From Sipunculus nudus (Eukaryota; Annelida; Sipuncula; Golfingiida; Sipunculidae): DNA of 64,000 nucleotides. The stretch lies in assembly GCA_026874595.1 (NCBI GenBank), contig CM049313.1:16613508-16677507 (forward strand), read 5' to 3'. This document shows, piece by piece, positions 16,975 to 55,171 of this stretch. The position numbers and the translations under genes were made by a program. The notes under the pieces are model-generated. The model had not been told where the DNA came from and searched no databases. It saw only the letters and a program-made list of their open reading frames with translations. The stretch's first letter is position 1. Each line of letters starts with the position of its first letter.

Positions 16975-17167
16975 GTTTATAATATATACATGGCTGGCAG
17001 ACACTTGTGTTCAAGGAGATACAGAGAATTCTCAAATCTTCACAACCGTTTGAAACGAGAGTTTGTTGACTTCACATTCCCCAAGATGCCAGGAAAATGG
17101 CCCTTCCACCTCTCAGAGCAGCAGCTAGACTCAAGGCGGCGAGGACTTGAACAATATTTAGAAAAAG
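16975..17167 (+). CDS. SNX27: SNX27 exon, PX domain core
   Basis: The acceptor is tttcag before 16975 and the donor is GTACGT after 17167; the exon starts in phase 0 and ends after one base of a codon. It encodes 64 residues from VYNIYMAG to QYLEK, including the RRYREF phosphoinositide-binding motif and the PGKWPF loop of PX domains. The preceding residues of the PX domain are on an exon outside the window. Confidence 0.95.
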
Positions 17168-20100
17168 GTACGTGATTAGTTTACGGTAAATATTTGCCTC
17201 AGAAGGCATTTAAATTAAGCTGATAGGACCTACTGGGATCATAATTACAGTCAAATGGAAAACTGCACTGTGGTCATCCTCTCTTTTGCAACAGTATCAT
17301 TGTACAGAGCTGATAATCTTAACATGTGTCTAAAAATGAGGAAGTAAAAAAAAAAAATTTGCAAAGGTGACCGCTATATATTCAGTACCTGATGTTTAAG
17401 CTGTAAATCACATAACCCATTGGAGACTTCTTGAATGCGGAATTTAACACATGCTGGGAAATATATACCAATAAGATGAGTTATTATAGGATATTTCTAT
17501 CTGAATGATGAGTGTTTTTAGAAAGAAAACCAACATATTTAAGTACTGGTCTTGTTTATTCTAGAAGACACAAAACTCTTTAGCGATGAGGTGTTACAAG
17601 AAAATGGTCTGAATATTTATGCCCCCATCAAGGTTTTAGTGCAGATTTTGACCTAGTATGCACTGACATTTTATGTCTCAGTAAACTCACCCTTTTTTAT
17701 GTCTCAGTAAGCTCGCCCTTTTTAGGTAGCTGCAGCATTTGAAGGCTGAGAGGAAATGCATGAATGTCAGTAGCAAGATAGCATACTGGGTAATTATATA
17801 TCAAACCAATCATTTTGTGTCTCAGGTAGAAACTTGTGCTTAATGAAACATACAAGCCTACATTGTTAATATATAACAAAATCAGCTTGATTTATATTTT
17901 TGACAGAATAAGCCATCGCTTCTCTGAACAAATAAAATGCCACTGAGCTCAAAGCTTTGTTTCAAGCTTTACAAAGTAAATCTTTTTTGCCTAGATACCA
18001 CAGATTTACAGTGGAATAAATGTCTGTCATTTATAATAATGCTTTTCAATTCCATTTTATTGATTTCTGTTCATTCATCTATTTTTGTTCATTCATCTAT
18101 TTTTGTGTATCTCTTTACTCTAATTGCCTTATCAGTTGATATTTTTCTCATTTCTTATTTTGGTGGTTGATAGCATTGGGTGGTAGTATAAAGAGATTGT
18201 CAAATTCAGGCAGTATTGATATTTTTCTTGGTTTTTTGGTTTGTGCTGTGAGGGTAATAGTATAGATAGATTTCTTGCTAAGTTGATATTTTCTTATTTT
18301 GTAGTTTGTGCTGTGAGGGTGATATTGTAGATAGATGTATTGCCAAGTTGATATTTTTTCTTGTTTTGTAGTTTGTGCTGTGAGGGTGATATTATAGATA
18401 GATGTCTTGCCAAGTTGATATTTTTTCTTGTTTTGTAGTTTGTGCTGTGAGGGTGATATTATAGATAGATTTCTTGCCAAGTTGATATTTTTTTTCTTGT
18501 TTTGTAGTTTGTGCTGTGAGGGTGATAGTATAGATAGATGTCTTGCCAAGTTGATATTTTTTTTTCTTGTTTTGTAGTTTGTGCTGTGAGGGTGATAGTA
18601 TAGATAGATGTCTTGCCAAGTTGATATTTTTTCTTGTTTTGTAGTTTGTGCTGTGAGGGTGATAGTATAGATAGATGTCTTGCCAAGTTGATATTTTTTT
18701 TCTTGTTTTGTAGTTTGTGCTGTGAGGGTGATAGTATAGATAGATGTCTTGCCAAGTTGATATTTTTTTTCTTGTTTTGTAGTTTGTGCTGTGAGGGTGA
18801 TAGTATAGATAGATGTCTTGCCAAGTTGATATTTTTTCTTGTTTTGTAGTTTGTGCTGTGAGGGTGATAGTATAGATAGATGTCTTGCCAAGTTGATATT
18901 TTTTCTTGTTTTGTAGTTTGTGCTGTGAGGGTGATAGTATAGATAGATGTCTTGCCAAGTTGATATTTTTTTTCTTGTTTTGTAGTTTGTGCTGTGAGGG
19001 TGATAGTATAGATAGATGTCTTGCCAAGTTGATATTTTTTCTTGTTTTGTAGTTTGTGCTGTGAGGGTGATATTATAGATAGATGTCTTGCCAAGTTGAT
19101 ATTTTTTCTTGTTTTGTAGTTTGTGCTGTGAGGGTGATAGTATAGATAGATGTCTTGCCAAGTTGATATTTTTTCCTGTTTTGTAGTTTGTGCTGTGAGG
19201 GTGATAGAATAGATAGATGTCTTGCCAAGTTGATATTTTTTCTTGTTTTGTAGTTTGTGCTGTGAGGGTGATAGTATCTATAGATAGATGTCTTGCCAAG
19301 TTGATATTTTTTCTTGTTTTGTAGTTTGTGCTGTGAGGGTGATATTATAGATAGATGTCTTGCCGAGTTGATATTTTTTCTTGTTTTGTAGTTTGTGCTG
19401 TGAGGGTGATAGTATAGATAGATGTCTTGCCGAGTTGATATTTTTTCTTGTTTTGTAGTTTGTGCTGTGAGGGTGATAGTATAGATAGATGTCTTGCCAA
19501 GTTGATATTTTTTCTTGTTTTGTAGTTTGTGCTGTGAGGGTGATAGCAGAAAGTGACATGATGCAAGAGTTCCTATCCACTACAGAGGAAGATACGGTTA
19601 GTGATCCAGTGTTACCGTAGATCCGCGTTTTGCCGCCGCACTTCGTCTAATGGCCGCACCCCATGTTCGTAAAATACCTGGAAGGCTCCTTCACTGGAGT
19701 AAAAATACCCAAAACCTTACTTAATGGCCGCACCACATTCTCATCACGTTCCATTGCCGGGTGATGTATGATAAAACATAACGTAAAAAGGTTTCCCTCA
19801 AAAGCTAGACTGCAGCTTGGAAGGCTGTGGTATGCTGATATGCGATCAGGCATTACAGTTTTGGGAAACTGAGCAAGTTGCAACTGTGTATGTTGCTTGG
19901 CTTTGTTAATTAAACAGCCTGATCTACCCAGTTAGAATAGATGAGAATTTGTTCGATTTATGACGACTCATCCAAGACGAATCCTAGTAGGGCCGCGAAA
20001 TTAATTTGACACATCACTGAATGCCGGAGAATCTTGCGCCTTTAACTTTGCTAATTAAACTTCAATGGGACATCAACAGATCAAAGCATTGTATAGGACG

Positions 20101-23100: not shown

Positions 23101-26100
23101 GCTCCTTACATTTCAGTATGAAGAACTTATTATATTATTATATTGACACAATATCAAATCATATAATAATGCAATAATAATGTAAAATACAAAAAAATGA
23201 TTGATTTTTACATAACTTTTCAAAATATGGCATAGCTCCTCTCCCTTTGGGACTCTCTAAAATCACACTTGATTGTCCATGATTTTTGACCTTAGTGTTC
23301 CAGACTCTTTATAGCCTTGAATTATATACTTTTATTAAAAAAAATGAGAAATTTTAACTATTTCTAACTGTAAAAAAATTACTTTAAAAATCAATACAGA
23401 TAAATATAAATTTGACTGTCAAAGAATGAATATTAGGATTTTTGATCATTAAGTCTTAGAACTCCTGATGGATAACAAATCAAGTGATAAAAACTGCCTC
23501 TCAGTAAGTTCAGAAGAGCCTTTCAATTTTAATACAAAGTATTCCCTGAAATACACTTCAGTATTTTTATATGGGATCCAGTATTATAAAAGGAAACTTT
23601 AAATAGGAGCCAGAATTATGGCAGACAATATGTGTTGAATTAGTCAGTTTAAGTGACAGACTGAAAGAGATTCAGATTAGAAAAAGAATGCTTTCTGTCT
23701 GGCATTTTGTAATTGATAGTGAAAGAGTTGAAAGAAATACATGACAGCTACAGAATCTGGGCAGACTATTCAAGGGAAGACTTGTAGTAAATATAATAAA
23801 TGAAAATAATAATGAGATTACGGGCAGAAATCTAGGGAGATCTAAAAACCCCTGGAGGTGTATTTAGATGCCTTTGATATTTACTGTATTTTCTGTATTA
23901 GTCCATCTCCTTTAATTGTTCAGACACCCTTTGTTTACCATATTTATACAGACAAACAATAGTAGTGAAGTAGAACTGAGGGTGCTGCTACCAGACAGAA
24001 ATATCCTCACAGTCACAATAAGAAGAAATAGCACCACTGATGATGTGTTCCAGGTGAGTCTGTTCTGTCCATGCTGCATTACAAGCACAAGGCAGACTTA
24101 TTAGTTTTGTATCCTACGTGTGTATAAACTTTTCGGGTTTGTGAAATGTTAAGATGGTTCCCATAAGTTAACATTTTTAATCGTTTTGTGACATGGCTAG
24201 CTGTCATGTTTTAAATCAGATGTGTGTGTGTACTGTAGGAGTTAATGGCTATAAAATGTTTAGTGGGAGCCAGGGTATTTTTTCATTTTAAACATTTAAA
24301 TGTTATGCAAGGATATATTTGTGACCTGTTCCATCTCAGAAGTGTACCTAGGATGCTCGAGATTGTCCAGTTCACAGGTTTAAGTCATTAAATTATGTAG
24401 GAGGGTACCTTAAATGATAAATGTGTCAGTGACTGTAATCCAAAACCCTGGATCAAACATGAAATATTTCTTTTCAAAGAAGTTCATATCTGTTTCTTGA
24501 TTCATATTAAAATGGGTATTTTTGCCATACATTTCTTATATGTTTATATTTTAATTGCAAAGTGCTTTGATCTAATTATTTTATGTTAAAACACTATATA
24601 GATTTTGCAAAAAAATAAAATCAGAAGATATATAAAAGTTATCCATGGTTAGCACAGGAACAATGCCCTGTAAGGCAGCAAGGTCACTTTGACTTATTAT
24701 ACATGTGCCATTAAGTGCCATTATGGTGATAATCCCTCTCATATTAATCATTACAAAAGCAGTGGTATAATCATATTGGTGTTTTCAGTTAGGTGCATAT
24801 TAATTTCTGTTTTTGCCTTCCTTTGAACCAAGCTCCAAACAAGCGTAAAATGTGATCCATTGCACAAATGGCTACACAAGTATATTAACCTGATCACACA
24901 CCATGCTTTATTTACAAATTTAATAATATTGGTTTTCATGAAAAGCCTATTGGTTTTAATGAAAATCTTTATTTATTTTTATTGGCTTTGAACCACATAC
25001 ATCCTGATGAGATGAGGTAATAATCAGTTGTACATTTCAAACTTACATGAATACTTTGATTCCTACATATGTATTCATGGTCTCTCTCTCTTTATACAGA
25101 GCTATTCATTAATTTATCTACATAAATACTCATATACCTAAAACAGTTGTTATCATTACATGCCTCTCCGGGCTTAAGTTTGTACATCTGACCAGCTGTA
25201 TTCTTTTTATAACTGGAAGTTTCATCACATGTATATTGAATATGTATGTTTGTTTTAGGTGTCTTTGTAAAGACACATAACTGAATCACTTTAGAAAATA
25301 TGTAATCCTTATCCTCACGTTTTGAATATTGTAGGCTGTGGTTCAAAAAATGAACATGAAATCTGACATCGCACAGTATTTTGCCTTATTTGAAATAGAA
25401 GAGTTTAATTTTGGTAAGTACAAGAGCCACAGGTGAAGACTTTTAAGCCTTGTTTATTGGACTTTGGAGGGATTCTCCTGAGCCAAATCTGATTTTATTG
25501 TCTTACCTTACTGAACAGTGGCCCGAGTCTTAGTGCTATAAAAAAGTGTAAGTTTTAGTGACACTGTATATTTTTAAGTAGTGTGGGTTTTTGACAGAAA
25601 AAAAATTAATGTTTCATTTTGTTTTGCTTTTTTCATTAAATGAAATAATTGTTTGTATTTCTCCCTTAAAATTATACCCACATTGGTGATTGAAGGCTTT
25701 TTTTCACTTATATAATTTATTTAAGGGCACTTGTTGTAATTGCAAGACGCACGTGCCTCACTGCAATATTATATCAAGTATGAGTGACAGGTGTATTTTC
25801 CGCAGTTTTTATTTACCATTTTCTTGTCAGTGACTAACGTTACCGTAATATGAGAAATTGAGCATCAACCAGCGGAAGCTGCCAAAACGTGATACTTAGT
25901 ATCCCTGTAACATATTCACAAGTATCATATCAGTAATGTATATGTAATGAAGGTTTTTCCTTATTTGCCTGACAGTTTGTTACATTTTATCTGGAAAGAC
26001 AGTTTTTTTCAGAAATGATGTTTATTACTGATTATTTTATATAGGTTGCATATCATTTTATTTACTTGATATTTGCAGATAGAAAACACTGGGTTATTTT

Positions 26101-28240
26101 TTATGTGGAAAATATAAATACATTTTCAAGGACTGAAGTTTATTACTTTATTGAGGTTTCTGTATCAGGTTTCTGTGATTTTTTCAGAGTGAAAAAAGTA
26201 TGCTACTTTTAAACAAGAACATATTTGTAACATTACAGCTAATGGAAATGCAACAGTAACACAATTATAGGGTTATAATTTTATGTGCATTGGGTCGGCT
26301 TTATACATGCAATAGTTCAAATTCACAGTTTTCACAAAAGGGACAATAATGGTTAATAAAAATCTCTATAAACAAAGGTGAACGTTCAATTATACAGTGG
26401 CCCCATTAGCATGTCATGTATATTACCCATGAATATAGCATCAAAGGTTGAGACTAAAGGATGGATGTGTATATTAAAAATTATATATTATAGATAATAT
26501 CAGATCTTTTATATTGTTAATTTAAAATGAAAACAAAATGAATTTCCACTCACTTTATGTTAATTTAGCTAGTATTGAGAGAGTGAAAGTTTTGTGAACA
26601 TATTAAACCAGAAAATTGAGAAATGACAAAAGAATGAACTCAAAATACCAGAAGGGCAAAGAGCAGAATCAGATGACACTAACATCATTGATGATATCAA
26701 ATTATAAACCCAAACTTTTAAGTTTAATGTAGAAGTTAATGACAATGTGTGACACAACTTTCAGTAATATATATCTTTTGTCACACTGTTAACTATTTAT
26801 CAGACCATAAACCGTTACATTTACCTTTCAGAGAGAAAACTTCAGGCAAACGAATACCCCCACAACTTGTACATCCAAAACTACTCCACTGCCACCGCGA
26901 CGTGTATCTCACTCAGGAAGTGGCTTTTTACTGTGGAACGAGAAGCGCTGCTCTACAACAGCAGGATGGGCCTCGACTTCCTCTATGGTCAGGTATGTTA
27001 TAACATGGTCATGAAAACATGACTTTACATGAAAATTTGCTAAACAAATGTGTATTATCTCAGGCAGTTAGTTCATTTTGGCTGAATACATTTGTTTACC
27101 AGCAAAACCATCCAGATAATCGGACTGACTCTGATTCACCTGTTTTATTATTCTCCTCACGCAGCAGTTATTCCCTGCAATTGTCCCAGATATCCTCTTG
27201 TGTAACTTTTGCTTTGTATAGCAAGATTTTCTGGGTCTGACCACCAGGGCTGGCACAGAGCATAGAAGTGTGATCAGACCAATGAGAGAGTGATATTGCA
27301 TTGTGCATCCAGCTCCAAATTTTTAACATGCACCACCCACTCTCATTGGTCTGATTCTTGGCCCTGTGCCAGAACCGGTGTAACTTATGCCTTAACTGTA
27401 TGGGCATACTGAATGGATAATCTTAACATTTGGTTATAAGTGTAGAATTAACACGAAAAAAAGGCATCAATGTACAAACCAACACATAAAGCCACATATC
27501 TGTTGTAACCAACAGTTAGCCAATCAGATGCTGATTAACAGTGTTGTTTTGCCATGTGCTGCTGACTGTCATTAAGTGCTGGAGGTCACAAGCTTAATGT
27601 CAGACTTTCTGTTGAATGGTCATTTATCTTTTCTACATATTGACACAGGGACACTTGACAATACCAAGTCAATATTTGACTTTGCATCACAACACACAAG
27701 TGCATGGGAGAACCAGTAATTAGCCATTAAAAATTGTATTCAGCAGTAGGGCTGAAATGGGTACAACATTTTGGACTCGAGTACTCGATAGGCATTACCC
27801 GACTTGGACTCGAGTACTCGTTACCATGGCAACGCTGTAAAGTTAAACGGACATGTGTTTATGCAAGACATACATAAATTTGACTTCGTGACTCAGAACG
27901 AAGGAAAAGATATAGATACTAAAATTTAACAGAGTGGAAAAATCCATTGGAATGCATTTAAATAATAAATGTGAATCTCTTCGAAACTGTACAGTATGAT
28001 TGTTACTTCGATAATGAATAAATAGGCCGAGACTGCCAGTAAATTTGCCGTAATATTCATATATGCATGTTCATACACGAGTACTCGAGTCCAAATTTTA
28101 GACTCGGGTACTCGGTAAGTATTACCCGGACTCGAGTACTCGAGTACCCCTTTCAGCCCTATTCAGCAGTCAAGAATTTTGTAACACAGGTCATTGTATC
28201 CCCAGACAAAGTCGGGGGATACTATGTTTTCATACCGGTC

Positions 28241-28277
<37 letters not shown>

Positions 28278-31200
28278 ATATGAATCTTGTTGGCGTGATA
28301 ACCCAAAAAATATTTCACGGAACTTTACCAAACTTGGTATATGTATAGATATGGGTAAGAGGACGACGCCTATTTAAAATGAGGTCATGACCTTTACTAG
28401 GAGAGTGTCCTTGACCTTGAATAGGTCCAATTTTTGGGAAAATCACACAAATTCTTTAATATCTCAAGAAATCTTGCATGGATTTATCCCAAAATCAAGT
28501 TGATGGAAGATCATGGATAGGGTTGTCATGTTCCAGAAACTGGTGGCGCCACCTATTATTCTTTACTTTTTTTCGTGCCGTTTAATACCCCCTAAATTGC
28601 CACCTTACAGCACTGTGAGCATTATAAGTCAAAAACTAATGGACAGATTTCTTTTGTATTATGCATATACATAGGTATGGGTTATGGGATGATGCTTATT
28701 TAAATTGGGGTCATAACCTTTCCTATGATAGTGGCCTTGACCTTGAATATTGCCATATATGGTGAAAATCACACACCTCTTATGATATCTCCAGTGTTGA
28801 TAGCCATATGGATTTCAAACATGACTTATGTATGGCCCACCACTAAAGTAAGAACCCTATAGGTTCTAGGGTCATGAGGTCAAAGGTCAAGGTCACTGGA
28901 CTGGCATTTTAAAAGATACTTTGGATGCATTTTAAGCCAAACTTTCATCCCAGGTCTTCCATCTTGAATATATAGCTCACTTGCCAATAATGGATGATCC
29001 ATATAAATTTTGGGGTCACAAGGTCAAAGGTCAAGGCCACAGGAGCTATCTGTCCAAAAATTAGTTTCTGGATGATAATTCCTGCTGTTATTGATGTAAT
29101 GATTTCAAAATTGACTTATATATGTCCCATTGAAAAAGCAAGACTCAAATTGATTTTTGGGTCATGAGGTCAAAGGTCAAGGTCACAGGAAACCTCTATA
29201 AAAAGATTGTGGATGCATTTTCAGCCAACCAATTCATCTCAGATCTTTCATCTTGCACATATAGTTCACCTGCCAAGAGTGGAAGACCCCTATCAATTTT
29301 GAGGTCACAAGGTCAAAGGTGAAGGTCACAGGAGCCATATGTCCAAAAATTAGTTTCTGGATCATAATTCCTGCTTTTATTGATGTATGGATTTCAAACT
29401 TGACTTATATATGTCCCATTGGAAAAGCAAGACCCAAATTGATTTTGGGGTCATGAGGTCAAAGGTCAAGGTCACAGGACACATCTTTAAAAAGATGTGG
29501 ATGCATTTTCAGCCAAACATTTCATCTCAGACCTTTCATCTTGCACATATAGTTCACCTGCCAAGAGAGGAAGAACCCTATCAATTTTGAGGTCACAAGG
29601 TCAAAGGTGAAGGTCACAGGAGCCATCTGTCCAAAAATTAGTTTCTGGATGATAATTCCTTCTTTTATTGATGTTTGGATTTCAAAACTTGACTTGAATT
29701 TGACCCATTGGAAAAGCAAGACCGGAATTGAATTTGGGGTCATAAGGTCAAAGGTCAAGGTCACAGGAAACCTCTATAAAAAGATTGTGGATGCATTTTC
29801 AGCCAAACAATTCATCTCAGATCTTTCATCTTGCACATATAGTTCACCTGCCAAGAGTGGAAGATCCCTATCAATTTTGAGGTCACAAGGTCAAAGGTGA
29901 AGGTCACAGGAGCCATATGTCCAAAAATTAGTTTCTGGATGATAATTCCTGCTTTTATTGATGTATGGATTTCAAACTTGACTTACATATGTCCCATTGG
30001 AAAAGCAAGACCTAAATTGATTTTGGGGTCATGAGGTCAAAGGTCAAGGTCACATCTTCAAAAAGATGTGGATGCATTTTCAGCCAAACATTTCATCTCA
30101 GGTCTTTCATCTTGCACATATAGTTCACCTGCCAAGAGAGGAAGAACCCTATCAGATTTGAGGTCACAAGGTCAAAGGTGAAGGTCACAGGAGCCATCTG
30201 TCCAAAAATTAGTTTCTGGATGATAATTCCTTCTTTTATTGATGTTTGGATTTCAAACTTGACTTGTACTTGACCCATTGGAAAAGCAAGACCGGAATTG
30301 AATTTGGGGTCATGAGGTCAAAGGTCAAGGTCACAGGAAACCTCTATAAAAAGATTGTGGATGCATTTTCAGCCAAACAATTCATCTCAGATCTTTCATC
30401 TTGCACATATAGTTCACCTGCCAAGAGTGAAAAACCCCTATCAATTTTGAGGTCACAAGGTCAAAGGTGAAGGTCACAGGAGCCATATGTCCAAAAATTA
30501 GTTTCTGGATGATAATTCCTGCTTTTATTGATGTATGGATTTCAAACTTGACTTATATATGTCCCATTGGAAAAGCAAGACCCAAATTGATTTTGGGGTC
30601 ATGAGGTCAAAGGTCAAGGTCACATCTTTAAAAAGATGTGGATGCATTTTCAGCCAAACATTTCATTTCAGGTCTTTCATCTTGCACATATAGTTCACCT
30701 GCCAAGAGAGGAAGAACCCTATCAGTTTTGAGGTCACAAGGTCAAAGGTGAAGGTCACAGGAGCCATCTGTCCAAAAATTAGTTTCTGGATGATAATTCC
30801 ATCTTTTACTGATGTATGGATTTCAAACTTGGCTTTTTTATTGACCCATTAGAAAAGCAAGACCCAAATTGATTTTGGGGTCATGAGGTCAAAGGTCAAG
30901 GTCACAGGAAACCTCTTTAAAAAGATTGTGGATGCATTTTCAGCCAAACAATTCATCTCAGATCTTTCCTCTTGCACATATAGTTTACCTGCCAAGAGTG
31001 GAAGACCCTATCAGTTTTGAGGTCACAAGGTCAAAGATGAAGGTCACAGGAGCCATATGTCCAAAAATTAGTTTCTGGATGATAATTCCTGCTTTTATTG
31101 ATGTATGTGTTTCAAACTTGACTTGTATATGTCCCATTGGAAAAGTAAGACCAAAATTGATTTTGGGGTCATGAGGTCAAAGGTCAAGGTCACAGGACAC

Positions 31201-34200
31201 ATCTTTAAAAAGATGTGGATGCATTTTCAGTCAAACATTTCATTTCATATCTTTCATCTTACACATATAGTTCTCCTGCCAAGAGAGGAAGAACACTATC
31301 AATTTTGAGGTCACAAGGTCAAAGGTGAAGGTCACAGGAGCCATCTGTCCAAAAATAAGTTTCTGGATGATAATTCCTGCTTTATTGATGTATAGATTTC
31401 AAACTTGACTTGCATATGTCCCATTGGAAAAGCAAGACCCAAATTGATTTTGGGGTTATGAGATCAAAGGTCAAGGTCACAGGACACATCTTTAAAAAGA
31501 TCAAGGTCACAGGACCAACATCTTCAACAAGATTGTGGATCGTTAGATGGAATAAACAATAAATATGCCAAGTGTCAGTATATGCTGCTAAAAATGGGGG
31601 TCTGTTCTTGTAGGAGGGGGGCCTACTATGTCTGGGGATACTCTGGCACCTGCGGTGCCAAGAAATGTCTAGTTTATTGTTGAAGTTACACTGACTTTTC
31701 TGTTACAGGCAGTGGATGATGTAGGCAGAGGCCAAATAAAAGCTGCAGAAAAACTCTACGACTTGAAGGCCTACCAAGAGGCCGAGAAAAAGTTAGAGGT
31801 ATGATCCCTGTGTGTGCTGTATCGGTGTCTTTAATGTATGGTAGCTCATCAGGATAGGTAGAAAATATTAGAGGTTGTTATAAAAGTTTATATATGTTTT
31901 ATATTTGAGCATTATTGAAATAAATTGTTACATTTAATAATAGCGTATAGATTCTAATTAACATGGTTGTCTTGGTTCATCATTTTTACAATAAATGTTT
32001 GTTTGAATTGTAATTATTAAGGAAGAAATATCCAGGCTGATTAATTTCACCATATTTACTGTAATTTATGAATGTGACCAGCCTGACAATATTTTCATCA
32101 TCTATTCTGAACGCATGGACATTGCCACTCAAACAGTTGTTTCACAATCTTTGCTGTACCATATACATATAACAAGTCTGATGATTATTTTTACCATCTT
32201 TACTGTAGTACATGAAGCTAGTCCGACAGTTGGAGGGTTACGGTGAAATCACCTTTCCCCATTGTGCGTGTGACTCACGTAAGGAGGGACATGTAGTTGC
32301 CACTGTCAGCATGGCCTGCTTCCGATTACAGGCCTGTAAGGACGATGGATCATTAGAGGTAAGTGATGTCAAATCTGGTCATACTCACCCTGATGTTAAA
32401 TTAGCACAGGTTGAGAACCAAACAGGCAGGTGGCTTTACATGTTAACCATAATGTTACAGTGGTTGATGAATCATACTAATCACAGCTGTTGTGTTAAAA
32501 TGACCATGGATACTTATTTAGCAAACCTGTGAGCTTATGCGATGGTGTGGCGTCGTCCGTCTTGCGTCGTCTGTATGTTAACCATAGCTATCTCAAAAAC
32601 AGCAGGAGCTAGCATCACCAAATTTTTTGCAAATAATTACTCATCTGAAAAACTCTATCGGATTTTGTTTATTTTTTTCTAACTGCATTTTCTTAGATTT
32701 CATAGGGAAAAAGCTAAAAAAGCTTTAAAAATCTTTTTCTCCGAAACTGTCCAGCCAAATTGTCCAATATTTCACAGAAATGATCCCTGGAATTATCTCT
32801 CTCGAATTTGTTTAATTGGTTCCATTTCGGAGATTTTTGGCTGAGTTACAGGAGGTTGAACTTAGTCATTTGTCCAAAAAAGCATACTAAAATTAAAATC
32901 TCAGAAACGTCTAGAGCTGTAATCACCAAATTTTATACCAATGTTTCTCACATATGTCATATCTGAAATTGAGGTATTTGTGGCGCCACCTACATTGATC
33001 TTTTTTTACAAGCGAAAATGTAAATTTAAACTCTTATAGCTTATACACTGATTTATGATGAAACTGTTAAGCTGATTGGTTTAAACTTTACAAGAATTAT
33101 TCTATGGAAGGGTTCTGCCAGTTTTATAAGAATAGATTGGCTAAATACAGCTTTAAAAAAGTTTTGTAGCCAATTGAAGAAGGCTTTCTGTGTTTGAAAA
33201 CAGATTTGACAACATGCTGAGTTTCAGCAGTCAAGTCAAGAGGTCACTCAGTACAACCAGGACGGGTCCAGACATCACCATGGCAACTGACCTGGCTCTG
33301 GCAGTGTCTAGACAATGTGTCTAGATGTCTAGACTAGAGACAGCGTCTAGACTTCTAGACACAATGTCTAGCACAGAATTCCCAGATTATTGGAACTATA
33401 TCTTTGAGCTGTTTGAAAAAAGATTTGACATCTAAAAAATTATCAGATTTATAGCGAACCTGTGAGCTTTTGCAATGTTGCTGCATCGTCCATTGTGCGT
33501 CGTGCGTCGTCTTTAGTTAACCATACCTATCTCAAAAAATGGCAGGAGCTAGCATCACCAAATTTTTTGCAAATAATCAGTCATCAGTCATCGTTTGTTT
33601 ATTTTTTTCTAACTGCATTTTCTAAGATTTTTGCACAGCGTCCATATCTCTGCATTGGTTGGACTTATCGACCTGAAATTTTGCATGTGTATACATCTTG
33701 GACAGCTTTCTTGATTTTATGACAGGTGGCGCCACCTACATCACGTTTAAGCTGCAGACATCCAAGCTCATATCTTGGGAACCGTTTGACCAGTTGGGCC
33801 AAAATTTTACATGTGTATAAATCTCCCATAGCTCCTTATCATACCCAAAACTGGTGGCGCCACCTGCAACCATTTTTGCACAGCGTCCATCTGTTCATCT
33901 GCCTTGGGCTAAAATCACTCATATCTCGGCAGTGGTTTGACTTATCCACCTGAAATTTTGCAGGTTTATACATCCTTGACAGCTTTCTTGATTTTATGGC
34001 AGGTGGCACCACCTACATTCAAATTTACGCTGCAGACATCCAAGCTCATATTTCTGGAACCATTTGACCGATTGGGCAAAAATTTTGCATGTTTATAGGT
34101 CTAACATAGCTCTTTATTATACGAAAAACTGGTGGCGTGACCTGCAATAATTTTTGCACAGTGTCCGTCTGTCTGTTTGCCGTGGGATAAAATATCTCAT

Positions 34201-37200
34201 ATCTCGGCAGTGGTTTGACATATCTACCTAAAATTTTGCAGGTTTATACATCTTGGATAGGTTTCTCGATTTTGCGGCAGGTGGCGCCACCTATATTTAT
34301 GTATATGCTGCAAACATTCAAGCTTATATTTCAGGACTGGTTTGACATATCCCCCTGAAATTTTGCATGTGTATAGATCTCACATAGCTCTTAATCATAC
34401 ACAAAAGTGATGGCGCCACCTGCCAACAATTTTGCACAACGTCTGTCTATTTGTCTACCGTGGGCTAAAATCACTCATATCTCAGTAGTGGTTTGACTTG
34501 TCTGCCTAACATTTGGCATGTTTATACATCTTGGACAGCTTTCTGGATTTTGTGGTAGGTGGCGCAACCTACATACACATTTCGGCTGCAGACATCCAGG
34601 CTATTATGCAACACACCTCACTCTATTTCCCCTTGCCACTCAATCCATGCCTCACTTCACCCGTCCCACACTGATTTTGGCGGATACAAGTAGTCACTTG
34701 TTGACTACCTGTATTCTAGTTTTTGTGATGTGTGCACCCATGCTAGAATTTCATTAATTCATGATTAATTGTTTCTTGTTCTAAGTGTTTATTACTTGCA
34801 TTGTTCATATACATGTTACACATGTTCTTGAAAAGTAATGGTCCAGCATTGAAGCATTATACCTGGTGTAATCTCACTGCACAGGTTTGCATAAGGCCTG
34901 TAGGCCTTGTTTTTTAAAATAAATAAAAAATAATCCTACCGAGTCAGCTCCTTTATCAAGATTGACACAAAAATTTTATGTGGACTCTCCTGGCCCATAT
35001 TGCAAAGGGACAAACAGACACAGATAAAACATATCGTAATAAATTATTGCATATTCATCCATCAGTTTTATCAGTTAAATCATCATGGGATCATGTAACT
35101 GAGTAAAAGAAAAAAAATCTGCTTATTTTGACTTAGATTAATCTGAGACCACCAGAGTAGATTAGTGTATTAGTGTATTAGTAAAGATTTAATTCTTCAG
35201 GGATATCTGTATGTGCTGTGTGTTTTTACATTACAGTCCCAGGTGATAGACTTCCAGTGGGATGAGGTCAAACAGTATGAAGTCGATGAAGAAGGAATGT
35301 CTTTCAACTTTGAATATGAAAAGGCTGGTAAAAAATCAAGATGGGTCCGAATATTAACATCATATGTAAGTAAATGCTAAAATATAATAAGACCTTACTT
35401 ATTAAAAAGAAATTAAATTAATATATATTTACAAGTACTTGGTTCAACAAGGTAAAAAAAACTTATACCTAGCCTCACTTCTTATTCACCTTGTTTTGTG
35501 CAGTATTTAATCATCTAAAATAAATCCATAAAATTATGGAAATGTTCACAAGCAAAAAATACAAAAAGAAAAAGGATGTAATTTTTTGTACAATATTACA
35601 GTTAAATAGCAATTATATATATTTCATGATCGGTGGGCTTGTGGGTATGCTCCAGAGTTATTCATATAATCTTTTCAAATGTACTGTTTGTGGATGGATG
35701 TTTAATTGATAGATAACAGAAGCCATTAGGTTCACTCAGCATGTAACCACCTCATTTGCTGGTTGATGATAAGGTGGGAAGATGCTATTTATGGTGCTTC
35801 TTGTGCTAATTTCACAACACATGATATCTTGTGAAGTGAACATGTTCTTAAACTGCTACCAGCATTGATCCAACAAGTGTCACTGTAACATTAACAAGGA
35901 CATGAAAAGAAACATGAAAGGATCATGATTCTGATGATGAGACACTATCTGATATGATGATAGTATACAATGTCATATATTGCCATAAGTATATTTACAT
36001 TATACATGAAACAGTTCATTTATATATAGTTATTCCTGTGACAAAGAGGACTGACTTATAGAGTTTATGTCTTCTTAGTATTAACATAAAATATAATAGG
36101 TTTATATTGTGCAGGCACTGTGCAATAATAAAAGTAAAATTAAACTTTTTGCAATACAGAGAGAACAAACTAATAAACATTTGATTACGAAAATGAAGTT
36201 AATATAATTAACATGATTCTTAAATGGAGGAAAAAGTATTCTTTCAGAAGACATTTAAATGTTGAAATGGCACAACAAGGATCAATATCTTTAATAACAT
36301 TGTTCCAAATTCCAACCCCTTTGAATTGTAAAGTTTTACTGTAGGCTGCAGTTTTACATACTGGTACTTGAAAACAAATGCAATCTTCTTGTTCTGTTAT
36401 GATGTACGTCTTAAGTATTTGCAAAATAATTCAGATACAATTAAAGGTAACATAATTAATCTTATACAGAAATAAACAAACACTATAATTGTAGATATTT
36501 TCTAGGGTTAGTAACCTGAGGGAAATAAACAGATCATGTGTATGCCAATACTGTTTAGATTTTGGTCCACCAGCAGTTAGCTTACTGAGAGATGTTTATT
36601 TTTCTTTCAGCAATTCTACATGTATGACTGCTTTGAGCGGGTACAAGAAGAGAGGCAATGGAAAAGAGAAGTGAGGTTTCATTGTAAACTATTTCATGAC
36701 AAACCTGTTGTATAGACCTGCACATACTTAATGTAAATGGTAAATTTTTTACCATAAATCAAGTAATTCTTAATTATCGCTTTACATTGGGTATTTGTCA
36801 TATTTTGCTCAGGTCACAAGTTACTCTACTCTCCTCATGCAGTCACACTCTGGTCGTTCCAGATCTCCTTCGTTTTAACCGCTGCTTTGTTTAGTGTGTT
36901 TTCTTGGCACATGGCCAAGAATCACACCAACAAGAGCCGTGTTATTTAAAACTTGGAGTTGGATGCACAATGTGATCCCATGCTCTCATTGGTCTGATTA
37001 CAGTTGTTTGTTCTGTGTGGGCCCTGGTAGTGTAACCCAGAGAATCTTTCTATACAGAGCAGATGTTAAAATGATAAAAATCTGGAATGACTACAGTGTA
37101 TAACTGCTGTGGGAGGTGTGTAAATTTACCCTAATAGTGATGTCCTAAAAATGAAAGTTTTATTAAACATTAAGAACAATGATTTCAGTTTCAAGACTGA

Positions 37201-38356: not shown

Positions 38357-41300
38357 TTGTATCCCCAGACAAAGTCTGGATACTATGGTTTCACGACGGT
38401 CCTGCCGCCGCCGCAGAAAAACCTTGTGGGCGGGATAACTCAAAAAATATTTCACTGATCTTTTTCAAACTTTACATTTGTATAGATATAGGTAAGGGGA
38501 CGAAGCCTATTTAAAATGGGGTCATGACCTATGCTAGGAGAGTGACCTTGACCTAAAATAGGTCCATTTTTGCTGAAAATAACACAAATTCTTAAATATC
38601 TCAAGTAAGCTTGCATGGACTGGTCTAAAAATCAAGGTGATCTTGGATAGCCTTGTGATATACCGGAAACTGGTGGTGCCACCTATTATCCTTTTCTTGT
38701 TTTTGCGCCTTTTAATACCCCCATAATTGCCACTTGACAGTACTGTAAGCATTATAAGTCAAAAACTAACAGACAGATTTCTTTCATATTATGCACATGT
38801 AGAGAGATGGGTTATGGGATGAGATCTATTAACATTTGGGTCATGACCTTTACCATGAGAGTGGCCTTGACCTTTAATGTGTCCATATTTGGTGAAAATC
38901 ACACACCTCTTATGATATCTCCAGTGTTGATAGCCATATGGATTTCAAACGTGACTTATGTATGGCCCACCACTAAAGTAAGAACCCTATAGGTTCTAGG
39001 GTCATGAGGTCAAAGGTCAAGGCCACAGGAGCTATCTGTCAAAAAATTAGTTTCTGGATGATAATTCCTGCTTTTATTGATGTATTGATTGCAAACTTGA
39101 CTTATATATGTCCCATTGAAAAAGCAAGACTCCAATTGATTTTGGGGTCATGATGTCAAAGGTCAAGGTCACAGGACACATCTTTTAAAAGATTTTGGAT
39201 GCATTTTCAGCCAAACATTTCGTCTCAGACCTTTCATCTTGCACATATAATTCATCTGCCAATAGAGGAAGACCCCTATCAATTTTGAGGTCACAAGGTC
39301 AAAAGTGAAGGTCACAGGAGCCATCTGTCCAAAAATTAGTTTCTGGATGATAATTCCTGCTTTTATTGATGTATGGATTTCAAACCTGACTTGTATATGA
39401 CCCATTGGAAAAGCAAGACCTGAATTGATTTTGGGGTCATGATGTCAAAGGTCAAGGTCACAGGACACATCTTTAAACAGGTTGCGGATGCATTTTCAGC
39501 CAAACAATTCATCTCAGATCTTTCATCTTGCACATATAGTTCACCTGCCAAGAGTGGAAGACCCCTATCAATTTTGAGGTCACAAGGTCAAAGGTGAAGG
39601 TCACAGTAGCCATCTGTCCAAAAATTAGTTTCTAGATGATAATTCCTGCTTTTATTGATGTATGGATTTCAAACTTGACTTGTATATGACCCATTGGAAA
39701 AGCAAGACCTGAATTGATTTTGGGGTCATGAGGTCAAAGGTCAAGGTCACAGGACATCTTTAAACAGGTTGCGGATGCATTTCCAGCCAAACAATTCATC
39801 TCAGATCTTTCATCTTGCACATATAGTTCACCTGCCAAGAGTGGAAGACCCCTATCAATTTTGAGGTCACAAGGTCAAAGGTGAAGGTCACAGTAGCCAT
39901 CTGTCAAAAATTAGTTTCTGGATGATAATTCCTGCTTTTATTGATGTATGGATTTCAAACTTGACTTGTATATGACCCATTGGAAAAGCAAGACCCGAAT
40001 TGATTTTTGGGGTCATGAGGTCAAAGGTCAAGGTCACAGTACACATCATTAAAAAGATGTGGACGCATTTTCAGCCAAACATTTCATCTCAGATCTTTTA
40101 TCTTGCACATATAGTTCACCTGCCAAGAGAGGAAGAACCCTATCAATTTTGAGGTCACAAGGTCAAAGGTGAAGGTCACAGGAGCCATCTGTCCAAAAAT
40201 TAGATTCAGGATGATAATACCTGCTTTTATTGATGTATAGATTTCAAACTTGACTTGTATATGTCCCATTGGAAAAGCAAGACCCGAATTGATTTTTGGG
40301 TCATGAGGTCAAAGGTCAAGGTCACATCTTTAAAAAGATTGTGGATGCATTTTCAGCCAAACATTCATTCTCAGACATTTCATCTTGCACATACAGTTCC
40401 CCTGCCAATAGAGGAAGACGCCTGTCAATTGTGAGGTCACAGGGTCAAAGGTGAAGGTCACAGGAGCCATCTGTCCAAAAATTAGTTCCCGAGATGATAA
40501 TTGTATCCGCCAAAACAGAGTTTTGCGGATACTATGTTTTCAGCTGGTCGCCGCCGCCGCCGCCGCCGCCGCGTAGGTGTCCAGAGAACTCCTCCGTAAC
40601 CGCTGGGCGGAATTTTCCGAAACCCGGGATTATGTTCGGGTCACATGTGAACTGCTGCGCCCCGATTTTGTTTTGACCTCTGACCTTTCCTCTGCGCTCT
40701 GCGTCCGTTTGTGCGTCTGTTTTCACACATAAACCCACATATCTCGGGAACCGTTTGACCGATCAGGAAAATTTTTTTGCACAAATGTAGCCCTCGGAGA
40801 GCTTTATAACATACACCAAAAATGGTGGCGCCACCTGCAACCATGTTTGCACAGTGTCCATCTGTTCGTCTGCCTTGGGTTAAAATCACTCATATCTCTG
40901 CAGTGACTTGACTAATTCACCTGAAATTCGGCATGCGCAAACATCCTGGATAGCTTTTCTGATTTTATGACAGGTGGCGCCACCTACATTCACGTTGACG
41001 CTGCAGACATCCAAGCTCATATCTCCGGAACCGTTTGACCGATCAGGAAAATTCTTTTGCACAAATGTAGCCCTTGGAGAGCTTTATAACATACACCAAA
41101 AATGGTGGCGCCACCTGCAACCATGTTTGCACAGTGTCCATCTGTTCGTCTGCCTTGGGTTAAAATCACTCATATCTCTGCAGTGACTTGACTAATTCAC
41201 CTGAAATTTGGCATGCGTATACATCCTGGATAGCTTATCTGATTTTATGACAGGTGGCGCCACCTACATTCACGTTTACGCTGCAGACATCCAAGCTCAT

Positions 41301-42425
41301 ATCTCGGGAACCGTTTGACCGATCAGGAAAATTCTTTTGCACAAATGTAGCCCTTGGAGAGCTTTACAACATACACCAAAAATGGTGCCGCTACCTGCAA
41401 CCATGTTTGTACAGTGTCCATCTGTTTGTCTGCCTTGGGTTAAAATCACTCATATCTCTGCAGTGACTTGACTAATTCACCTGAAATTTGGCATGCGTAT
41501 ACATCCTGGATAGCTTTTCTGATTTTATGACAGGTGGCGCCACCTACATTCATGTTTACGCTGCAGACATCCAAGCTCATATCTCAGGAACCGTTTGATT
41601 GATCAGGAAAATTTTTTTGCACAAATGTAGCCCTTGGAGAGCTTTATAACATACACAAAAAATGGTGGCGCCACCTGCAACCATGTTTGCACGGTGTCCA
41701 GCCGTTCGTCTGCCTTGGGTTAAAATCACTCATATCTCAGCAGTGGTTTGACTAATTCACCTGAAATTCTGCATGCTTATACATCCTGGATAGCTTTTCT
41801 GATTTTATGACAGGTGGCGCCACCTACAATCAAGTTTATGCTGCAGACATCCAAGCTCATATCTAGGGAACTGTTTGACCAATTGGGCCAAAATTTTGCA
41901 TGTGTATAGTTCTCACAAAGCTCTTTATCATACGCTTAACTGGTGGCGCCACCTGCAACCCTTTTTTGCACAGCGTCCATCTGTTTGTCTGCCAAGGGCA
42001 AAAATCACTCATATACAATATAGTGGTTTGACTTATCTGCCTTAAATTTTGCATATGTATACAACTTGGACGGCTTTCTGGATTTTTTGGTAGGTAGCGC
42101 AACCTACATACACAATTTGGCTGCAGACATCCATGCTGATATGCAACACTTCACCCGTTCCACTCTGATTTAGGCGGATACAAGAAGTCGCTTGTCGACT
42201 ACCCGTATTCTAGTTCAAGCTTGGATTGATATATGGATTTCAAACCTGACATATATGGCCAATCAATAAATCTAGACCTCTATTGATTTATATATAAAAG
42301 TGGATGATCATTATCAATTTTGGGGTCAAAAGGTCAAAGGTCAAGGCCACAGGAGCCTATTCTTAAAGGGGGGGCGTACTATGTCTGGGGATACTCTGGC
42401 ACCTGCGGTGCCAAGAAATGTCTAG
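38357..42425 (+). mobile_element. Helitron-like element, family A, copy 2, interrupted by a family B element
   Basis: It has the same 5' TTGTATCCCCAGAC end and the same 3' end (GTCTGGGGATAC, TGGCACC/GGTGCCA hairpin, CTAG at 42422-42425, then T) as 28194-31672. The core has about six ~288-bp units at roughly 38920-40500. A complete family B element occupies 40501-42213. After it the core sequence resumes at 42214 at the matching position (GATAA before, TTC...GATATATGGATTTCAAAC after), so the insertion can be dated as later than this copy. Confidence 0.85.
40501..42213 (+). mobile_element. Complete Helitron-like element, family B, nested in family A
   Basis: The 5' end TTGTATCCGCC has a hairpin GTATCCGC/GCGGATAC, followed by a CCG tract at 40547-40573. 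The 3' end has GGCGGATAC, a hairpin with AGTCG/CGACT arms and CTAG at 42210-42213. The core has four tandem units of exactly 280 bp, with GATCAGG at 40761, 41041, 41321 and 41601. Each unit is two diverged ~140-bp halves centred on GGTGGCGCCACC. No protein is encoded. Confidence 0.85.
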
Positions 42426-53466: not shown

Positions 53467-54939
53467 TTATAATTTATCTCTGTTCAAACAGAGCTTGTTA
53501 ACAACATCAGTACAAGCATTGCCCAATGACAATTCTTTCACACCACTGAGAAGATTAGCAATGTTTCCTTGTGTTGCTTTGTCCAATAAGGATAAGCAGT
53601 CTGTGGCCATCGCTACCAGTTCCTTTTTCACAGTCACACAGGAGCAGCCATCATCTCCTGAAAGATCCGTTAAAAACTTAAGGACAGCTTTGGTAATATC
53701 ACTTGAGTAATGTGCAATTCTTGGCCATGTTTGAATTATAATAATTCTTAATGCTGTTAAAATGCCTTTCCTGGTTTCTTCTTTGGCGCCATCATACACT
53801 TCGAGGTACATGAACACAACTCTGAAAAGCCTTTTGTAGTGACGTACAAGACTGATGCCAAGTAGGTTTAAAATCCCTGGAAGCTGTCTGCAATACGCTC
53901 TTCTTAGTACTAATAAATTTTCCATCTCCATGTCTGTCAAAAATTTAACGAGAAACTTATCCCACCTGTTGTAGGGATGTGGGCTGTTTTGAGATAAAGG
54001 TTCAACCACTTTCAGTGCATCAAGGATGCATGGGTACAAGACGTCCACTAATTTCACCTCACGATGATATAATAAATGAAACAAAGCATCGTAAATAACC
54101 TCAGCTCGACCATACCACTGCAACTCTGCTTTGCTAGTGTTTTTGATAATATGATGCAGGCATTGTACACCCAGACATCTGTAATCCAACTGCACAGCGT
54201 CAACCAGCAGCAAAGCTGGTGGCAACAGATCACTGAAGTATTCGCTCATGTGTGGAAATCGGAGGGAGAATACACAATAACTGTACACAGCTAAAACTCC
54301 TGGGTTATTCTTCCAGTTAGCTTTGTACAATTTCTCCTTCATCAGCTTTATCAAATACGTCAGAACACCACCTGGTATATGACTCTCTGGACGACCAAGC
54401 AAAAGATCAATATTACTACCCACATTCAATAAAGTACAAAGCTGATCTAAAATGTTTTTGCTGTGTGTGAGGGTGGATTCTGTAGTCCATGAATGTTCGT
54501 CAGCATGTTCAAGACATAGCAGGACTATGCTAGTCACTGGGATGACATCGTACCATCCTTCCTTACTGGTTTCAGCATGGACTGAAAGGATTTTGTCAAG
54601 GAACACTTTCACAAGATGAAACACAGAAGGAGCAAATGTAAGAGTCTTGTGGAAATCCTCAGTGCTGTACTCTTCCACATCTTTCTGGTCAAACGTCCCA
54701 ATCAGACCTTTTTGTGTAACATTATGTAATGCTTCTTTTAGCCTGCCACAGATTTTGACCTGATTTTCCCTTGAAAGATTGACTTGGCTTGCTCGATCGT
54801 CTTCAGGTCTGGCCATGAAGTAGGGAGGGGCCCTCTGGGCGATAATTGAAGATATTTTCTCCAATTCCATACAAAACGCATCTTGGTCGAGAGTGAAGGC
54901 CTTTTCAAGGCTCTCTGCTATAAAATTTAGAAATTCCAT
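53467..54939 (-). CDS. TTI2: TELO2-interacting protein 2, intronless, complete
   Basis: A 490-residue frame from ATG at 54939 to TAA at 53467; human TTI2 has 508. TTI2 joins TELO2 and TTI1 in the TTT complex, which works with HSP90/R2TP to fold and stabilise PI3K-like kinases (mTOR, ATM, ATR, DNA-PKcs, SMG1). The protein is all-helical HEAT-type. The C-terminal half carries the family's recognisable segment LGISLVRHYKRLFRVVFMYL then EVYDGAKEETRKGILTALR and a leucine-rich tail with CLSLLDKATQGNIANLL. An in-frame stop lies three codons upstream of the ATG (54946-54948), so this start is firm. There are no introns, unlike the multi-exon vertebrate gene; intron loss or an old retrocopy are both possible. 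I see no poly(A) remnant. It is convergent with SNX27. Confidence 0.9.
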   Translation of the reverse strand: MEFLNFIAESLEKAFTLDQDAFCMELEKISSIIAQRAPPYFMARPEDDRASQVNLSRENQVKICGRLKEALHNVTQKGLIGTFDQKDVEEYSTEDFHKTLTFAPSVFHLVKVFLDKILSVHAETSKEGWYDVIPVTSIVLLCLEHADEHSWTTESTLTHSKNILDQLCTLLNVGSNIDLLLGRPESHIPGGVLTYLIKLMKEKLYKANWKNNPGVLAVYSYCVFSLRFPHMSEYFSDLLPPALLLVDAVQLDYRCLGVQCLHHIIKNTSKAELQWYGRAEVIYDALFHLLYHREVKLVDVLYPCILDALKVVEPLSQNSPHPYNRWDKFLVKFLTDMEMENLLVLRRAYCRQLPGILNLLGISLVRHYKRLFRVVFMYLEVYDGAKEETRKGILTALRIIIIQTWPRIAHYSSDITKAVLKFLTDLSGDDGCSCVTVKKELVAMATDCLSLLDKATQGNIANLLSGVKELSLGNACTDVVNKLCLNRDKL

Positions 54940-55171
54940 TACATATTATAGTCTTTTCGTTTTAGTACCGTTGCCTGAATGAGGCAGTAACACAAGATAT
55001 CACAGTTCTAACAAAGTGGAACTATGGGCGCAGACATATTGAAAATATATAGTAAAAAGTAAACGCAAACCTAGTATTCTCGGATTAAATAAACATGGGG
55101 TTCATTTCAGCGGAACAATTATTAACGTGTTACCGGTAGGTGTAAATGGTTATTACCTGCCCGTCTGTCAG

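Follow-up and report, generated by a model that had tools for sequence, protein, structure and literature searches.

An intron of the SNX27 gene carries, upstream of the exon that begins at 19526, 19 head-to-tail copies of its own 3' splice signal together with the first 20-21 bases of that exon. The array belongs to a known, if obscure, kind of boundary duplication, the mirage, of which it is a large and clean example. It is probably a neutral by-product of tandem duplication that is tolerated because the last acceptor is chosen through exon definition. Unless a locus or contig is given, positions refer to the window, by which we mean the whole analysed stretch of 64,000 nucleotides.

The acceptor array and its host gene

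The 16-mer TTTGTGCTGTGAGGGT occurred exactly 20 times at 18240-19526, representing the 19 array copies and the start of the genuine exon. The spacing between copies was 67 bp in 12 of 19 cases, 69 bp in four, and 65, 70, and 71 bp once each. TRF identified the array at 18216-19546 with a period of 67, 19.7 copies, 96% matches, and a score of 2371, which is far above chance. A 29-mer consisting of TTTTGTAG plus 21 exon bases was matched 14 times in the genome (1.43 Gb, 153 contigs), with 13 matches in the array and one at the genuine exon; no match was found outside the SNX27 array locus in this 1.43-Gb search. The features of the array are as follows.

18216..19546, + strand: minisatellite array (mirage), 19 units and the genuine boundary (TRF, copy table, unit alignment)
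18240..18260, + strand: exon-derived segment of copy 1, with GG instead of AG at the acceptor (copy table)
18305..19479, + strand: decoy copies 2-19, exon-derived starts, all after AG (copy table)
18305, 18372, 18439, 18508, 18578, 18645, 18714, 18783, 18850, + strand: starts of decoy copies 2-10
18917, 18986, 19053, 19120, 19187, 19254, 19325, 19392, 19459, + strand: starts of decoy copies 11-19
18136..18201, + strand: possible remnant of an earlier array copy, decayed and lacking AG (local alignment, near-matches to GGGTGATAG)

The initial annotation had described an exon boundary amplified in units of about 68 bp, with the first 21 exon bases repeated in 19 copies before the genuine one and the AG kept in all copies except the first. 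The amplification into 19 copies was confirmed by TRF, with a modal period of 67 bp in place of 68, and the copy table bore out both the AG of copies 2-19 and its loss (GG) in copy 1. The 21 exon bases were identical to the genuine ones in 13 of 19 copies, whereas six copies differed by one base (copies 2, 3, 4, 13, and 17 at base 21 only, copy 1 at base 17). The same annotation counted about 19 nearly identical acceptors, and this agrees with the 18 decoy AGs plus the genuine site; 11 of 19 decoys matched the genuine site throughout the 23-mer from -20 to +3, and 5 of 19 did so from -30 to +21.

Local alignment of 18136-18201 to the unit gave a score of 32, which was reached by 0 of 1000 shuffles of 18110-18205 but by 4 of 1000 shuffles of 18110-18240, and a second window position also scored 32. 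Five near-matches to GGGTGATAG lie outside the array, two of them at 18165 and 18178. These results are suggestive only; at its 5' edge, the array may continue into a copy that is older and has decayed (about 18136-18201). On the minus strand, the array is open for 398 residues (18148-19344), which is most likely meaningless.

An assembly artefact, affecting either the array itself or the number of its copies, was considered, as one amphioxus mirage is described as apparently aberrantly assembled in the draft genome (PMC3087553). The units here carry unit-specific variants and T tracts of differing length, the 5' copy is diverged, and the array sits in an 80.9-Mb contig, all of which make such an artefact highly improbable. 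The exact copy number is that of one assembly and should be taken as provisional.

The exons of SNX27 in the window were located by tblastn with an SNX27 probe and are listed below (a slash marks the exon boundary).

16975..17167, + strand: SNX27 exon (PX domain), supplies the donor G/GTACGT (tblastn with 77% identity, splice sites, frame, Pfam PX)
19526..19596, + strand: genuine SNX27 exon after the array, 71 nt, phase 1 to 0, donor ACG/GTTAGT (tblastn, in-frame junction, SNX27 homologues)
23952..24053, + strand: next SNX27 exon after 19526..19596 (tblastn, splice sites, frame)
25335..25413, + strand: SNX27 exon (tblastn, splice sites, frame)
26832..26992, + strand: SNX27 exon (tblastn, splice sites, frame)
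31709..31798, + strand: SNX27 exon (tblastn, splice sites, frame)
32209..32358, + strand: SNX27 exon, acceptor duplicated at 32038 (tblastn, splice sites, duplication test)
35237..35365, + strand: SNX27 exon (tblastn, splice sites, frame)
36611..36715, + strand: last SNX27 coding exon with stop (end derived from the 359-residue frame)

The donor G/GTACGT after 17167 joins the TT at 19526 in frame, and the two joined exons matched SNX27 in the PDB with an E value of 1.9e-42. All nine exons have GT/AG splice sites and a continuous frame, giving 359 residues with PX and FERM-like domains. A protein search with this sequence yielded 701 relatives; among the best 120 of the 701, identity was 66% or less and the top named relatives were invertebrate SNX27. 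When Owenia SNX27 was searched against the whole genome, 11 matches were obtained, eight of them on the window's chromosome in gene order, representing five of the nine exons in the window plus three that lie upstream. Two upstream exons were also located by tblastn, 21-23 kb before the window. Three of the eight matches contained one stop codon each, which we attribute to ends of matches that extend into intron sequence. The remaining three of the 11 lay elsewhere and covered only the PDZ part, with 34-41% identity. Rescue by a second SNX27 was therefore rejected, since none of the 11 whole-genome matches was such a paralogue at the sensitivity of that search. The gene thus looks intact and single-copy as judged from its sequence, and the acceptor at 19526 is therefore presumably used at least in part.

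A tree was built with 41 named homologues picked from the best 120 of the 701 relatives. The window sequence was placed within a 28-row spiralian set (100/99) and outside a 22-row mollusc set (100/98), with the nemertean Lineus nearest by path and Branchiostoma among the deuterostomes. By this tree, the host would be a non-molluscan spiralian.

Other repeats and genes were also observed in the window. Two tandem arrays with a unit of 289 bp and AAGGTCAAGGTCACAGG-like motifs are related to each other; they lie at 28807-31501, in an SNX27 intron, and at 38937-40502, past the last coding exon. Further tandem arrays of 278-280 bp are present at 33643-34602 and 40738-42142. A long open frame on the minus strand at 53467-54945 belongs to a TTI2 (TELO2-interacting protein 2) gene; its best match was from the annelid Lamellibrachia (37%) and most other matches were mammalian, which is weak evidence.

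Decoy signals and the choice of acceptor

In each unit, a branch-like TTGAT motif is followed by a T-rich tract, by TAG (copy 1 has GG in its place), and by 20-21 bases derived from the exon. The A of the branch-like motif lies 19-24 nt upstream of the exon start, and the copy table gave no AG between the motif and the acceptor in any unit. The T tracts of copies 5, 6, 8, 9, and 12 exceed that of the genuine site in length. We propose that a tandem duplication took in the branch site, the pyrimidine tract, the acceptor, and the first 21 exon bases, and that the duplicated boundary then expanded and was homogenised as any minisatellite would be. A tandem duplication that spans an acceptor would always leave its 3'-most copy attached to the intact exon and donor, so the gene would survive if the exon-proximal acceptor is chosen.

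Exon definition is the likely reason for this tolerance: the spliceosome would take the exon-proximal acceptor, as the decoys offer equal or near-equal local signals and only the last acceptor is placed 71 nt from a real donor and beside the rest of the exon. In the array (18230-19540), no GT matched at least 6 of 9 donor-consensus bases, whereas the eight real donors match 6-8. By the seed list used, seven purine-rich enhancer-like seeds lie in the genuine exon past base 21, and none in any of the 19 decoys. The introns flanking the genuine exon are 2358 and 4355 nt long. In a transcriptome-wide database study of a lineage other than the host's, splice sites closest across the exon were reportedly favoured when the flanking introns exceed 250 nt, the class into which both introns fall (PMC9225289). 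The genuine donor ACG/GTTAGT matches 6 of 9 consensus bases and is one of the two weakest among the eight, which weakens exon definition. Last-acceptor use, the exon-definition mechanism, and neutrality are all three what we infer from these signals and from the survey below.

The frame was read from each copy to the end of the exon, and an in-frame stop was met in all 19 copies, including copy 1 without its AG (at codon 9 in 18 copies and at codon 24 in copy 16). The initial annotation had expected either a strong preference for the last acceptor or isoforms. Since every copy leads to a premature stop, productive isoforms made by reading from a decoy through to the exon are excluded, whereas regulatory or leaky decoy use followed by transcript decay may occur. 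The stops arise because the unit contains TAG, and they are no sign of design.

These stops also bear on leaky decoys, that is, a sizeable share of transcripts spliced to the array and lost through premature stops and nonsense-mediated decay. Array length would then lower SNX27 output with no selected purpose. Besides the uniform stops, the 11 decoys whose local sequence equals the genuine site speak for leakage. The database study reports an overall preference for the upstream site among alternative 3' sites at least 20 nt apart, although this preference is significantly reduced with long flanking introns, and upstream decoy use is therefore a live risk (PMC9225289). We consider substantial leakage unlikely. 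SNX27 is open and conserved, the array is without strong donors or listed purine motifs, and the stops are expected anyway from the TAG in the unit. In amphioxus, RT-PCR is said to have suggested normal, undisturbed splicing at mirages, though many of their repeats keep AG or GT (PMC3087553, PMC3902484).

Alignment of units 3-19 gave 12 variable columns of 74, with copies 1 and 2 more diverged. None of the 12 falls within exon bases 1-20; all lie outside these 20 exon-derived columns. By our own arithmetic, the chance of invariant exon columns given five substitution columns is about one in six. The changes are too few, and the invariant columns neither show nor exclude constraint, nor do they favour neutrality. 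Amphioxus mirages are likewise described as having a homogenised centre and diverged cluster edges excluded from homogenisation (PMC3087553).

A selected rheostat, in which decoy splicing and decay at poison sites tune SNX27 dosage and the number of copies sets the level, would fit the same stop outcome in 19 of 19 copies, the AG retained in 18 of 19, and the invariant exon-derived columns of units 3-19, whose changes are too few to be telling. Homogeneity by turnover accounts for the stops, the AGs, and the columns, and such tuning is very unlikely.

The repetition of complete acceptors also raises a ladder of recursive splicing, with stepwise removal of the intron through the array. Recursive splice sites require AG/GT. 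All 18 AG-bearing decoys read AG/TT, and the GTs of the array all match fewer than 6 of 9 donor bases, with no strong donor match among them. Recursive sites were rejected on these grounds, and the probability of such a ladder is negligible.

Boundary duplications elsewhere in the genome

Among the SNX27 boundaries of the window (8 acceptors and 8 donors), two acceptors, 19526 and 32209, have a nearby upstream duplicate.

32038..32072, + strand: decayed duplicate of acceptor 32209, AG now AA, a single-copy mirage remnant (blastn, null test)

This remnant is identical to the 32209 acceptor at 29 of 35 positions (blastn E 2e-5) and scored 40 against a null maximum of 26 from 372 window segments. 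For the boundary at 32209, a third copy was considered at 32090; it was weak, its score being reached by 2 of 615 null segments, and was rejected. No boundary duplicate was found on the 12 edges of six further loci from the Owenia SNX27 search.

Recurrence was surveyed with 62 exon matches, comprising 50 of 75 for the myosin head (100 edges; two matches within the ranked series examined were passed over) and, for kinesin, 12 of 126 (24 edges). The edges were match edges rather than annotated exon ends, and the exon ends of mirages were judged by eye. An edge passed the duplication test if it beat its null by more than 3 points, a margin fixed after the myosin edges were scored. Three of 100 myosin edges passed (L053, L060, and L076), and without the margin five beat the null (these three, L037, and L065). 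The survey yielded three clear donor-side mirages, L053, L076, and L065. The duplications of L053 and L076 span the exon end; that of L065 scored 1 point above its null, was also flagged by TRF, and spans the exon end, with its decoy donor decayed. L037 scored 24 against a null of 23 and was not counted. L063, whose exon end is not fixed, and L077 are probable mirages. These five loci are listed below.

523-1522 (G000:C7), gene on - strand: L053, donor-side mirage of a myosin-head gene (TRF, reading)
786-976 (G000:C5): L076, myosin exon end and donor, with about three extra repeats downstream of the exon
836-991 (G000:C8): L065, myosin exon end and donor in an 83-bp duplication, decoy donor decayed
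10-591 (G000:C9), gene on - strand: L063, 30-bp array of 19.5 copies with many donor-like sites CAG/GTAAAAT past the myosin match
756-825 (G000:C12): L077, donor region duplicated in two copies that include only 3 bases of the exon

The L053 array consists of 27.8 copies of a 36-bp unit that includes the exon end and the donor, with ACAG/GTCAGT present 25 times, and a further myosin-like segment was recognised by motif downstream of it. L060 passed the duplication test, as did L086, the one passing edge of 24 for kinesin; both were rejected as mirages, since their repeats begin within the intron without crossing the boundary. At G000:C2:44848559-44854198, myosin-head matches repeating the profile span of about 109-153 were observed, which look like alternative duplicated exons.

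Sham positions within introns passed the test with the same >3-point margin in 19 of 180 cases; they were drawn from the first 30 myosin loci, are non-independent, and used wholly intronic queries, and 8 of the 19 passes came from L052 and L053. The myosin edges (3/100, kinesin edges left out) differed from the shams with a Fisher p of 0.035, which became 0.08 when L053 was dropped from only the shams and again 0.08 when the SNX27 boundaries of the window were added (5/116). Duplication is thus no more frequent at boundaries than in introns and may be less frequent, though a depletion at boundaries is not firm. Because sham introns are duplicated at least as often as boundaries, a neutral origin is best supported, and the SNX27 array would be a by-product of the genome's frequent local tandem duplication. 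The presence of the same kind of array at unrelated boundaries and the common local duplication at sham positions also argue against a selected rheostat of SNX27 dosage.

It is quite possible, and we put it forward tentatively, that this is a mirage-rich genome outside the cephalochordates, in which boundaries at acceptors and donors have repeatedly been amplified to as many as 19-28 near-identical decoys and the spliceosome routinely chooses by exon context alone, because the local splice-site sequence is uninformative at such loci. Together, the SNX27 array and the L053 donor array (about 28 copies) would allow exon definition to be tested outside vertebrates on both the acceptor and the donor side.

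Comparison with known systems

The SNX27 array consists of tandem units holding a splice site with intronic and exonic bases, with the AG kept in 18 of 19 copies and the authentic boundary and gene intact, as in mirages. The name reportedly comes from the Adh paper. Mirages are described in amphioxus as minisatellite-like duplications of intron-exon boundaries in the globin genes BflGb6 and BflGb9 and in Adh3, and TnC and PGBD5 are likened to them (PMC3087553, PMC3902484). The initial annotation had called a minisatellite with a splice site unusual, which is partly right; the kind is named and published, and other exons in this genome show it. The amphioxus examples are alike in their tandem boundary units, which occur at acceptors as well as donors and in many cases have AG or GT (PMC3087553, PMC3902484), whereas the host of the SNX27 array groups with spiralians by the SNX27 tree. 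The unit sizes and numbers also differ: the SNX27 array has 19 units of about 67 bp, while haplotypes of BflGb6 are reported with 6 and 3 units of 150-160 bp (PMC3087553), and reported Adh3 units measure 10-72 bp. No mirage outside lancelets was named in the open-access literature searched, where the wider search for the word itself was limited. The SNX27 array takes mirages beyond amphioxus, together with the intron-gain model that rests on them.

Two human systems are also comparable. The IFI6 (6-16) gene is reported to contain a minisatellite with repeated splice sites (1995 paper); there, donors of an interferon gene give protein isoforms, whereas the SNX27 array consists of acceptors with a stop after each decoy. 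An isoform-giving minisatellite of the IFI6 type was therefore rejected, as all 19 copies yield a stop if read through. Some tandem repeats of human segmental duplications likewise lie at exon-intron boundaries and are linked to the formation of novel introns, but their units are reported to average 30 bp by 4 copies, with half in coding sequence (PMC2812944).

In the SNX27 array, 12 of 20 acceptor positions, the genuine one included, share one 23-mer within one intact gene, so any preference among them in RNA must stem from position or exon context. In classical cis-competition experiments, minigenes with engineered duplicated 3' splice sites make identical acceptors compete, and exon context is reported to decide. 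The SNX27 array is a natural version of this identical-acceptor experiment and, unlike the engineered minigenes, it is about 20-way and sits within an intact gene.
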